Shown here one piece after another: positions 801 to 7,089 of a stretch of 27,055 bases of DNA. Each line of letters begins with the position of its first letter. Position 1 is the stretch's first letter. The notes beneath the pieces were generated by a model. It was not told the DNA's origin. It made no database searches and saw only the letters and a program-made list of their open reading frames with translations. Source of the DNA: a virus. The stretch covers positions 1 through 27,055 of the IMG/VR virus record IMGVR_UViG_3300026512_000050. One strand, given 5' to 3'. The position numbers were made by a program, and so were the translations under genes.

Positions 801-895
801 ACTACCTTCGGGTAGTATACATACGGTTTGAATACCAACAACAGCAGGCGTGCTGATGGTGACTAATAAACGCAAATTGGCGTGGAGGTATCCAC
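801..895 (+). ncRNA. candidate structured RNA: chain of compact hairpins
   Basis: This gene-free stretch holds consecutive hairpins: ACTACC-TTCG-GGTAGT (801-816, a UUCG tetraloop); ACCA/TGGT (834-837 with 857-860) enclosing CAGCA-GGCG-TGCTG (842-855); ACGC-AAATTG-GCGT (870-883); and GTGGA-GGTA-TCCAC (882-895), which shares two bases with the previous one. Local GC is clearly higher than in the flanking AT-rich sequence. I find no good ORF on either strand and do not recognise a named RNA family. It could be a regulatory leader or small RNA, or partly a terminator for the gene ending at 796, although no U-tract follows the first hairpin. Confidence 0.5.
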
Positions 896-975
896 ATATT
901 ATAAAAATACACATTTTATAAAAACATACACTATATACTTGTAATATCACCATAAAAATCAAAGAAAGGAGCATA

Positions 976-1057
976 GGAGTAGAAACATCGGTCAGTAATA
1001 GGACCTGTTAATTTGTTAATAGGGAGTGGAAATAGGACGCTACTCCCTTATTTTTTT
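976..1057 (+). terminator. intrinsic terminator with a possible competing antiterminator
   Basis: AGGGAGTGG (1021-1029) pairs with CTACTCCCT (1040-1048) as a nine-pair stem with one G-U, followed by TATTTTTTT (1049-1057): a standard intrinsic terminator. Upstream, GGAGTAG (976-982) is perfectly complementary to CTACTCC (1040-1046), the 3' arm of the same stem, so the two pairings exclude each other as in an attenuator. A smaller GGTC/GACC hairpin lies between. The terminator closes the left unit before a fresh promoter at 1068. The terminator is clear; the switch is inference. Confidence 0.7.
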
Positions 1058-3641: not shown

Positions 3642-3738
3642 TTATATGTTATTTTCAGCTTTAACAATAAGTGGTTTAGCAACATTGATATTAGTTAGCG
3701 GTATTAGAATTTTAATAATAGATAAATGGGGTGAATGA
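3634..3738 (+). CDS. 34-residue single-pass membrane microprotein
   Basis: A short ORF, MNDYMLFSALTISG to KWGE. Residues about 6-29 are hydrophobic enough to span a membrane once, and DKWGE follows. AGTGAGGTGG lies before the ATG. It overlaps the upstream gene by eight bases and the next by four, in a run of tightly overlapped genes that supports it being real. The role is unknown; small membrane proteins in early phage operons can alter the host envelope or exclude other phages, but nothing here proves that. Confidence 0.5.
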   Translation: MNDYMLFSALTISGLATLILVSGIRILIIDKWGE

Positions 3739-3905
3739 TGTATGCATTATATAAAGGTGAAATCATACTTGCTACCGGTACAATTTATCAAATAGCTGAA
3801 AAAATGAATATTAAAGCAAGAACAGTATTGTTTTATGGAACGAAAAGTTATTTAAAAAGAGCATCGGGCAAAGGTGATAACAATAGAGTGCTGGTGAAAA
3901 TATGA
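3735..3905 (+). CDS. small phage protein, possible DNA-binding fold
   Basis: A 56-residue protein starting with two Met codons and overlapping the upstream stop (ATGA). The pattern YALYKGEIILATGTIYQIAEKMNIKA, then a tyrosine/lysine segment (FYGTKSYLKRA) and a closing RVLVKI, resembles small phage proteins with a helix-turn-helix-like 'IYQIAEKMNIKARTV' segment. It could bind DNA and regulate early genes. The stop overlaps the next start by four bases. Function not established. Confidence 0.6.
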   Translation: MMYALYKGEIILATGTIYQIAEKMNIKARTVLFYGTKSYLKRASGKGDNNRVLVKI

Positions 3906-4030
3906 AAAATGCAGAAGATATAAATATATATAACAATGCAATAGTATATGAGCGAAAGCATGGTAATAATTTGAAATATATAGCGTATTTGCAAGAAAAG
4001 TTGAGGAAGTTGGTAAAAATAAAGAATTAA
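3902..4030 (+). CDS. 42-residue lysine-rich small protein
   Basis: A short ORF (MKNAEDINIYNNAIV to LVKIKN) that begins in an ATGA overlap with the preceding stop. It is rich in Asn, Tyr and Lys, with a helical, positively charged C-terminal half (LQEKLRKLVKIK). No recognised domain. It is kept because it continues the chain of overlapping genes; its leader is weak, so translation would depend on coupling. Confidence 0.4.
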   Translation: MKNAEDINIYNNAIVYERKHGNNLKYIAYLQEKLRKLVKIKN

Positions 4031-4043
4031 AATATCAAAATAG

Positions 4044-4095
4044 TATTCCCTATGAAGTGTAGACAGACTTTAAGGGAGTAAGAGAGTAAATACTC
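4044..4095 (+). other. two hairpins in the leader of the 4141 gene
   Basis: TATTCCCT (4044-4051) pairs with AGGGAGTA (4073-4080), including one G-U pair, with an inner AGT/ACT helix (4056-4058 with 4067-4069). A second hairpin, GAGT-AAAT-ACTC, follows at 4084-4095. Neither has a U-tract, so a standard terminator is unlikely. They fill most of the 110-base gap and may stabilise mRNA or control translation. Confidence 0.4.
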
Positions 4096-4140
4096 GTTGG
4101 AGAAATAAAAACCGTTAGAATTAGAATGAGGAGGGAAAAT

Positions 4141-4479
4141 ATGAAAACTGAACAGATGGTACAACAGGAAAATATAGATGAATTAATTAGATTGCAAAAA
4201 GAAAATCCAGATGCTAGAATTATGTGTTTTGTAAGCGAAGAATGCAATAATGGTGATTTTAGTTATATGTCTGCAAATTTTGGCAAACCAAGGTTAGAAA
4301 ATATGGCTTTAATAAATAATTATTGGTTAGATGATGAAGAAGAAATTAAAGAAAATATTGCTTGTGATATTGACGAAGAATTTGATTCAATTTCTAGAAA
4401 AGAATTTGAAGAAATGGTTGAAAAAAAATTCGAAGAAATTATCGAAGAAATTATCGTAATTTATATTGAAAGTTATTAA
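4141..4479 (+). CDS. acidic phage protein of unknown function
   Basis: A 112-residue acidic protein. ATG 4141 is chosen because GAGGAGGG lies about seven bases upstream; an in-frame ATG at 4126 would overlap that site. The first half reads LIRLQKENPDARIMCFVSEECN, then a central SYMSANFGKPRLENMALINNYWLDDEEE, and the C-terminus is a Glu-rich helix (EFEEMVEKKFEEIIEEI). The layout resembles a group of small, acidic phage early proteins of unknown role. It has no membrane segment or catalytic motif. High negative charge is common among DNA mimics, but that is speculation. Confidence 0.72.
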   Translation: MKTEQMVQQENIDELIRLQKENPDARIMCFVSEECNNGDFSYMSANFGKPRLENMALINNYWLDDEEEIKENIACDIDEEFDSISRKEFEEMVEKKFEEIIEEIIVIYIESY

Positions 4480-5020: not shown

Positions 5021-5173
5021 ATGTTAAACACTAAAGAAGTAAGCGAATTGTTAAAAGTGCATCAAAACACGTTGTATAAAATGATTAAGGAAGGACTTCC
5101 AAGTTATAAAATTGGTAATACTAGACGATATGACGAAAAGGAGGTGCTTCAATGGATCAAAGAGAACAAGTAG
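5021..5173 (+). CDS. excisionase-like helix-turn-helix protein
   Basis: A 50-residue protein of the MerR/excisionase winged-HTH type (HTH_17): LNTKEVSELLKVHQNTLYKMIKEG, PSYKIGNTRRYDEKEVLQWIKEN. Such proteins bind DNA as excisionases or small regulators. It has its own promoter and the leader AAGGAGGTGTTAAAATG, identical to that of the XRE gene at 1120. The HNH endonuclease gene starts inside its last 22 bases. No integrase is visible nearby, so a regulatory role is at least as likely as excision. Confidence 0.82.
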   Translation: MLNTKEVSELLKVHQNTLYKMIKEGLPSYKIGNTRRYDEKEVLQWIKENK

Positions 5174-5838
5174 AAATTTGGAAAGATGTTAAAGGATATG
5201 AGGATTATTATCAAGTTAGTAATTTAGGCAGAGTTAAAAGTTTAGATAGAATGATTGATAATGGGAAAGGAAAATATAAAAAAACAGGTAGAATTTTAAA
5301 ACAATCTAATACAACAACAGGATATAAAAAAGTTGAATTAAGTGTAAACGCACATAAAAAATCTAAAAAAGTTCACAGATTAGTATTAGAATCTTTTAAT
5401 GAAGTTCATTTAAAAAAAAGAAATATTTGTAATCATATTGACAATAACCCTCATAATAATAATATTAATAACTTAGAATGGTGTACTCAAAAAGAAAATA
5501 TTGAACATGCTTATAAAATTGGTGCTATACCAACATTAAATTTTGAAAAGAAAATTCTTGAAGAAATGTATATAAATAAAAAAATATCGTTAAATGATAT
5601 TGCAAAAAAATTAAATTCTAATGAAACAACGATAAAAAGATATTTGAAATTATATGGTGTTAAAATGAGAAGTATATCAGAAGCTCGAAGTTTGAAATAT
5701 GGTATAAAAGCAAAAGAAGTAAAAGAAATGTTGAAAACAAAAACACAATTGGAAATAGCAAATGAATACGGTTGCAATCCAACAACTATATCACACGCTA
5801 TAAAAAGATTTAAAAAGAATGGAGAGTGGTTAAAATAA
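5152..5838 (+). CDS. HNH homing endonuclease (NUMOD4-HNH with C-terminal HTH)
   Basis: A 228-residue protein with the NUMOD4 DNA-binding motif at residues about 9-31 (IWKDVKGYEDYYQVSNLGRVKSL), the HNH nuclease motif at about 73-111 (VHRLVLESF, NHIDNNPHNNNINNLEWC) and two C-terminal HTH-like segments (KKISLNDIAKKLNSNETTIKRYL; TQLEIANEYGCNPTTISHAI). Free-standing HNH enzymes of this type nick or cut specific phage sites and spread into related genomes. It overlaps the HTH gene by 22 bases and ssb by 13, which looks like insertion between two genes that were once adjacent. The start at 5152 has AAGGAGGTG upstream, inside the HTH gene. Activity is inferred from intact motifs. Confidence 0.88.
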   Translation: MDQREQVEIWKDVKGYEDYYQVSNLGRVKSLDRMIDNGKGKYKKTGRILKQSNTTTGYKKVELSVNAHKKSKKVHRLVLESFNEVHLKKRNICNHIDNNPHNNNINNLEWCTQKENIEHAYKIGAIPTLNFEKKILEEMYINKKISLNDIAKKLNSNETTIKRYLKLYGVKMRSISEARSLKYGIKAKEVKEMLKTKTQLEIANEYGCNPTTISHAIKRFKKNGEWLK

Positions 5839-6269
5839 ACTCATGTAATTTAATTGGAAGATTGGTAAAAGATCCTGAATTAAAATATATACCAGGAAGT
5901 GGAACAGCAGTTTCAAAATTTACTTTAGCAGTAGATCGTGGACTATCAAAAGCTAAGAAAAAAGAATTAGAAGATCAGGGAAAGCCTACAGCTGATTTTA
6001 TAAGAATAATAGTATGGGGGAAGCAAGCTGAAAATTGTGCTAATTATCTTGCGAAAGGTAGACTTGTAGCAGTTAATGGATCTATTAGAACAAGCAACTC
6101 AAAAGATGAAAGCGGTAAAGTTAATTATTATACAGATGTAAATGCTTATAATGTTGAATTTTTAGAATGGGGAGATAAGAAAGAAAAAAAATCAAATTCC
6201 AAATATGATGATGACATCAATCCAAATAATTTTAGTTCAGTTGAAGATGATGACGACATACCATTCTAA
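5826..6269 (+). CDS. ssb: single-stranded DNA-binding protein
   Basis: A 147-residue SSB with the OB fold over residues about 4-113 (NLIGRLVKDPELKY, VSKFTLAVDR, FIRIIVWGKQAENCANYLAKGRLVAVNGSI) and the acidic C-terminal tail DDDDIPF that docks partner proteins. It coats single-stranded DNA during phage replication. Start choice is awkward: the only usual start is GTG 5826, with GGAG (5821-5824) just one base away. SSBs commonly begin M-N-S-x-N-L-I-G; here that Met position is Ile (ATA at 5835), which has ideal spacing to GGAG. Translation may begin at GTG or at a rare ATA start, or rely on coupling to the HNH gene, whose stop lies at 5836-5838. Function call is firm. Confidence 0.92.
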   Translation: MVKINSCNLIGRLVKDPELKYIPGSGTAVSKFTLAVDRGLSKAKKKELEDQGKPTADFIRIIVWGKQAENCANYLAKGRLVAVNGSIRTSNSKDESGKVNYYTDVNAYNVEFLEWGDKKEKKSNSKYDDDINPNNFSSVEDDDDIPF

Positions 6270-6317
6270 TTATTAAGAAATAAAAAGTGTTATGTTCTAT
6301 TTAAAAATATAGTAAAG

Positions 6318-6346
6318 TTGTTTATATTCCAAAAGTATGGTATAAT
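6318..6346 (+). promoter_or_regulatory. promoter for the second Rha gene and downstream early genes
   Basis: TTGTTT (6318-6323), 17-base spacer, TATAAT (6341-6346), preceded by TGG as an extended -10. The Rha gene begins 20 bases downstream after CGAAAGGGGTG. It lies in the gap after ssb. Confidence 0.75.
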
Positions 6347-6366
6347 AAAACGAAAGGGGTGTTATT

Positions 6367-7089
6367 ATGTCAAAAATGATTGAATTAAAAAGAGAATTGC
6401 CTGTTACTACTTCGTTAGTAGTAGCAAAGGGGATAGGAAGAACTCACAAATCTGTAATACAACTTGTTAGAAAGTATGAAAAAGATTTAAAAACGTTTGG
6501 AACTTTAGCATTTGAAATGCGAAAGTCAGCAGGTCGACCACTAGAATTTGTTTACTTAAATGAAGCACAAGTATATTTTTTATTAACTCTAATGAGAAAC
6601 AATAAAATTATAACTGAATTTAAAAAACAACTTATAACTGAATTTGTGAGAATGAAAAAAACTTTAATAAACTTACAAGTAACTAGAAAAAGTAATGAAT
6701 GGAAAGAAAACCGAGTTGACGGTAAAAAAATAAGAAAAGAAACTACTGATGTTATTCAAGAGTTTGTAAAATATGCAACTAAGCAAGGAAGTAACAATGC
6801 AATAAGATACTATTCAAATATAACTAGAATGGAAAACAGAGCTTTATTCATATTAGAACAGAAATTTCCGAATGTTAGAGAAGTATTAAACAACAGACAA
6901 CTTTCAACTATTAAAACAGCTGATAATATAGTTGTTGAAGCATTGCAAGAAGGAATGGAAAGAGAATTAAATTATAAAGATATATATAAATTAGCAAAAG
7001 ATAGAGTTGAAAGATTAGCAGAATTAATTAAACCAACTCTAGTAATGAATTTTGATGAAGTAAAATTAATTGAAAATAAAGGAGAATAA
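6367..7089 (+). CDS. second Rha-family phage regulatory protein
   Basis: A 240-residue protein whose N-terminal about 100 residues match the Rha domain (LPVTTSLVVAKGIGRTHKSV, GRPLEFVYLNEAQVYFLLTL, FKKQLITEFVRMKK). The C-terminal region differs from the KilAC domain of the gene at 1321 and reads as helices (VIQEFVKYATKQGSNNAIRYY, MENRALFILEQKFPNVREVL, DIYKLAKDRVERLAELI). Rha proteins are linked to phage developmental control and interfere with growth in some hosts; the exact target here is unknown. It has its own strong promoter, and dUTPase starts right after its stop. Confidence 0.85.
   Translation: MSKMIELKRELPVTTSLVVAKGIGRTHKSVIQLVRKYEKDLKTFGTLAFEMRKSAGRPLEFVYLNEAQVYFLLTLMRNNKIITEFKKQLITEFVRMKKTLINLQVTRKSNEWKENRVDGKKIRKETTDVIQEFVKYATKQGSNNAIRYYSNITRMENRALFILEQKFPNVREVLNNRQLSTIKTADNIVVEALQEGMERELNYKDIYKLAKDRVERLAELIKPTLVMNFDEVKLIENKGE

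Follow-up and report, generated by a model that had tools for sequence, protein, structure and literature searches.

A conserved structured RNA directly downstream of a short early gene in two mostly dissimilar phages

The gap of 323 nt (797-1119) that separates a 63-aa early ORF from the gene of an XRE regulator in the viral contig IMGVR_UViG_3300026512_000050 (positions 1 to 27,055, a stretch of 27,055 nucleotides hereafter called the window) contains at 799-967 a genuine structured RNA. Its structure is well supported, and the element is a real conserved phage RNA that is absent from Rfam; it has two members, a number that limits what can be inferred from it. The second copy is found in IMGVR_UViG_3300039098_000100 (locus L024), which was reached by protein searches with the XRE and 63-aa products, and lies at L024:5216-5346, directly 3' of the 69-aa homologue of the 63-aa protein. 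This copy scores 158.8 bits with the covariance model R1, L024 being one of the two sequences of that model. We tentatively favor, from sequence comparison, a reading of 799-967 as a 3'-UTR or intercistronic RNA tied to the upstream early gene, where it may bind a protein and/or affect the fate of the message. The features of the locus are the following:

129-605, + strand: gene of a Tad2-like domain protein (PF11195, E 7e-25), 85% identical in L024.
605-796, + strand: 63-aa early ORF, followed directly by the RNA element in both phages; the L024 homologue has 69 aa and is 62% identical.
801-816, + strand: hairpin HP1, ACUACC-UUCG-GGUAGU, with a canonical cUUCGg tetraloop; in the MFE, with pair probabilities of 0.92-1.0 in both copies; sequence identical in L024.
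825-836, + strand: hairpin HP2, GGU-UUGAAU-ACC, of 3 bp, with a loop resembling a T-loop; pair probabilities 0.80-0.87 in both copies; identical in L024.
842-855, + strand: hairpin HP3, CAGCA-GGCG-UGCUG, which abuts P1 directly; pair probabilities 0.91-1.0 in both copies; identical in L024.
856-862, + strand: 5' strand of the long-range helix P1, AUGGUGA, pairing with 947-953.
863-946, + strand: variable interior of P1, 84 nt here and 43 nt in L024.
882-895, + strand: hairpin P4, GUGGA-GGUA-UCCAC, in both MFEs; UAGAA-GCAC-UUCUA in L024 (P4 was aligned by hand).
947-953, + strand: 3' strand of P1, UCACCAU, pairing with 856-862.
954-967, + strand: conserved A-rich tail AAAAAUCAAAGAAA, identical in L024 and followed by a purine-rich GGAG without an ORF.
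976-982, + strand: GGAGTAG, the putative antiterminator strand, probably not functional.
1021-1057, + strand: intrinsic terminator (stem 1021-1029/1040-1048, U-run 1051-1057; -13.3 kcal/mol), a separate module before XRE.
1068-1096, + strand: XRE promoter from a promoter scan, TTGATT-17-TAAAAT with a TG before the -10, kept in L024.
1120-1311, + strand: XRE/HTH_3 regulator, 90% identical in L024.

Compared with shuffled sequences, the segment 799-967 has a more stable fold (z = -3.2), a single one of 200 shuffles being as good, and the L024 copy gives z = -2.85. The unconstrained MFEs of both copies contain HP1, HP2, HP3 and P1, and thus the same architecture. A preliminary description of the window had recognized four compact hairpins as well as the intrinsic terminator, and all of these are present in the gap, the hairpins at 801-816, 825-836, 842-855 and 882-895; it overlooked P1, and the antiterminator that it added to them is a match close to chance (see below). 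In L024, P1 reads ACAGCGA/UCGCUGU: both bases differ in three of the seven pairs, yet every pair is preserved, with pair probabilities of 0.82-1.0 in the unconstrained folds of both copies. Such covariation alone is not rare with two sequences (63 of 500 shuffles); an anchored helix at the exact place of P1 occurs in 7e-4 of interior shuffles for each member. Despite interiors of such different length, both MFEs also place a hairpin with a 4-nt loop within P1. Conservation of the stems in relatives had been set beforehand as a test of the region, and in one relative, L024, the stems are indeed kept, P1 by compensatory changes. HP1-HP3 are supported by folding energy and constraint and not by covariation since, with only two members, both copies are identical there. 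The HP2 loop (UUUGA) could form a pseudoknot with the tail (UCAAA, 959-963). This pairing is put forward as a suggestion only, because both partners are likewise invariant and 6.7% of shuffles would be expected to contain a match of 5 bp. A hammerhead-like CUGAUG at 852-857 was considered and rejected; L024 has CUGACAG at that place. Another hairpin, ACTAC-AACGAG-GTAGT, occurs at 91-110, just 5' of the Tad2-like gene. It has the same stem as HP1, with whose ACTACC its GGTAGT strand could pair; it is lacking in the relative.

The 5' part of the element is conserved almost base for base. The block 799-856 is identical at 57 of 58 positions between the window and L024, the exception being one missing base (an indel at C824). 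At the fourfold-degenerate sites of the three genes shared by both phages, 52 of 78 positions (67%) are identical, and the chance of observing 57/58 given that identity is P about 2e-9. The constraint is not coding, because the one-base indel breaks the shared reading frame. A protein-coding explanation of the block was rejected on account of this indel, and so was read-through of the stop codon of the 63-aa ORF, as the frames differ between the two phages. The invariant stem sequences could instead come from the recent transfer of a short block. The two contigs are mostly dissimilar, and what they share at the DNA level is the cassette and a few short stretches, e.g. around window 5833-6270. 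Since the element sits at a mosaic junction where the gene order has been reshuffled, it might also be a DNA-level element (a recombination junction or a replication or packaging site) or a recently transferred block devoid of any role as RNA. Nevertheless, P1 changed with compensation and its flanks did not change; the - strand folds less well (z -2.0 in the window and -2.15 in L024) than the + strand, and the cUUCGg forms a stable RNA loop on the + strand only. A DNA-level explanation seems improbable.

The comparison of gene orders is informative about what belongs together. In the window, the order is Tad2-like gene, 63-aa ORF, RNA, terminator and XRE; in the relative, it is 69-aa ORF, RNA, Tad2-like gene, terminator and XRE. 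The RNA and the terminator are consequently 0.55 kb apart in the relative, with the Tad2-like gene between them. In both phages the RNA accompanies the 63/69-aa gene and the terminator accompanies the XRE promoter; they therefore form two distinct modules. This organization contradicts the proposal that the hairpins and the terminator make up one switch. The promoter that the preliminary description attributed to XRE was recovered in the scan, and its form common to both phages is TTGAWT, 17 nt, TAAAAT. L024 carries a terminator at the same place before XRE with a different stem (GAGCAG/CUGCUC) and a U-run. The terminator at 1021-1057 is an ordinary intrinsic terminator that ends the operon ahead of an independently promoted XRE. 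On the other side of XRE, L024 has a GC-richer non-coding stretch (6290-6500, about 12.7-12.9 kb of the IMG/VR contig) before a PAPS-reductase-like gene; it folds no better than shuffles (z -0.87) and has no Rfam match.

The preliminary description also claimed that GGAGTAG (976-982) and the 3' arm of the terminator give two mutually exclusive folds, which would make the region a riboswitch or attenuator. CTACTCC (1040-1046) is indeed the exact complement of GGAGTAG, and a structured RNA does lie upstream of a terminator. Yet shuffling gives a 7-nt match of this kind in 5.1% of cases for the 100 nt upstream and in 6.8% for the whole gap, and the forced antiterminator fold (-16.5 kcal/mol) falls short of the terminator fold (-19.5 kcal/mol) by 3 kcal/mol. 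L024 has no counterpart of the match, its longest being 5 nt. The terminator switch is not supported, because the match is near chance, less stable and absent in L024, where a whole gene is interposed between the RNA and the terminator; XRE is moreover independently promoted, and control of the terminator through 976-982 appears very improbable. Like terminator-type riboswitches, 799-967 is a compact domain of several helices that precedes an intrinsic terminator, and its nearly identical 5' domain together with the compensated P1 amounts to a conserved aptamer-like domain, any ligand binding being hypothetical. Unlike them, it has no conserved competing helix and its terminator is separable by a whole gene.

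In both phages the RNA precedes an intrinsic terminator, which would also fit a cis-acting antitermination RNA that modifies RNA polymerase and thereby lets it pass the terminator further downstream. The put RNA of phage HK022 works in this way from RNA alone (PMC9378689). Both put and 799-967 are phage early-operon RNAs made of adjacent hairpins and located upstream of terminators (PMC9378689). However, put has about 70 nt and two stem-loops near early promoters, whereas 799-967 has more helices (three hairpins and the long-range P1), spans about 125-170 nt, comes after an ORF and has a purely hypothetical antitermination activity; there is no sequence match between them. No conserved promoter was seen just before 799. 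The contig starts inside the operon, no operon promoter was detected, and this promoter may be located beyond the contig; the RNA is located after an ORF and not at an identified early promoter. A put-like function is as improbable as a DNA-level one.

The tail, for its part, ends in a purine run that resembles a Shine-Dalgarno sequence and may take part in the pseudoknot. These features would suit a translational riboswitch or leader, with the tail (UCAAA-GAAAGGAG) adjacent to a ribosome-binding site. Nevertheless, no usual start codon that opens an ORF at a suitable distance follows the tail in either member, and the Tad2-like gene of L024 has its own Shine-Dalgarno sequence about 40 nt further on. 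A translational role is, if anything, marginally less probable than put-like antitermination.

The element was also compared with known families, the preliminary description having recognized no named class. This holds after the searches: neither the window nor L024 has a match in Rfam 15 at the gathering score, both copies give only chance matches at a permissive threshold (E<=5), and ARAGORN finds no tRNA or tmRNA in either of them. No further copy was found by blastn of the element in phages and plasmids, and a tblastn search of phages with the 63-aa protein gave no match. Exact DNA patterns retrieved no third member from IMG/VR and 84,980 species genomes; the inspected pattern matches outside the contig of L024 (L025, L040-L051) correspond to apparent coding sequence or to inverted repeats that lie before an HTH gene and resemble operators. 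The covariance model found no member in 125 genomes of the host phylum, in 631 genomes of three other phyla or in 12 further phage contigs searched whole; its weak hits were inspected and judged to be chance. Since exact patterns are limited to close relatives and the model was built from two sequences, distant members could be missed. Orphan RNAs such as the STAXI, manA and wcaG motifs, discovered by comparative sequence analysis, also occur in phages or near mobile-DNA genes, and their functions are likewise unknown or inferred (PMC2864571). The RNA at 799-967 resembles them as a conserved orphan RNA and differs from them by its lack of a match to Rfam models and its two members.

The main rival to our favored reading is a trans-acting phage small RNA or decoy that would be freed by processing or termination and would titrate a host factor. 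The invariant loops and stems suggest a fixed partner, such an RNA would suit a cassette with a Tad2-like (anti-Thoeris-like) gene, and in the window the terminator begins at most 55 nt past the conserved tail. Yet no conserved promoter was seen directly upstream of the RNA, and its release in L024 would need processing, as no terminator precedes the Tad2-like gene there. The covariance model, applied to 80 loci over about 3 kb around Tad2-like genes, recovered only the own copy of L024 (as L055), and the element is absent from the 79 other phage loci. A small RNA or decoy is unlikely on this balance, though less so than the alternatives above. Decidedly less probable again is a new class of small phage RNA: a domain with a pseudoknot, whose hairpin face and tail are invariant, would travel with the 63-aa protein in a cassette that includes the Tad2-like gene, and would either act in counter-defence as RNA or make up the RNA part of a ribonucleoprotein. 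With regard to the cassette, the association of a Tad2-like (PF11195) gene (129-605) with an XRE regulator recalls counter-defence operons with HTH regulators. Elsewhere, the contig encodes two Rha-family (PF09669) antirepressor-like proteins (1321-2034 and 6367-7089), the first also with an ANT/KilAC domain, and a NUMOD4/HNH homing-endonuclease-like protein with extra HTH domains (5152-5838). A gap of 220 nt (3906-4125) between the ORFs 3735-3905 and 4126-4479 has no ORF of at least 50 aa on the + strand.

The reading of 799-967 as a 3'-UTR or intercistronic element is the simplest one because the 63/69-aa gene is its constant neighbor: the RNA comes directly after this one gene family in both members, which are two cases only. 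In that case, the RNA would be co-transcribed with the upstream 63-aa gene, as a 3'-UTR element in the window and an intercistronic one in the relative. Its predicted fold comprises HP1, HP2 and HP3, then P1 closing the variable interior, and the A-rich tail, which may form a short pseudoknot with the HP2 loop. The invariant face of HP1-HP3 and the tail could provide a platform for binding a protein and/or the RNA may act as a barrier that sets the stability or the processing of the 63-aa message, the terminator at 1021-1057 ending the 63-aa operon before XRE. The 63-aa product itself has no Pfam match, belongs to no recognizable RNA-binding family and has a weak best PHROG (E 0.038). Its model is a beta-alpha-beta-beta fold of modest confidence (pLDDT 74), and a fold search with it gave no significant match, so the mechanism is not decided by that protein. 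The L17 downstream element (RF01708) likewise consists of a structured RNA domain within a 3' UTR, downstream of a short ORF, a location described as highly unusual in bacteria (PMC2864571). The likeness is one of position: the L17 element belongs to a ribosomal-protein operon, whereas 799-967 belongs to a phage early operon and has no Rfam match, RF01708 included.

Structured elements are rare in bacterial 3' UTRs, and here a 5' domain is kept near base for base in two mostly dissimilar phages even though the fourfold sites of their shared genes are only two-thirds identical. An RNA with two members is a lead and not a new principle. Being conserved and sharing its cassette with an anti-defence-like gene, it would be a testable candidate for RNA-based counter-defence.
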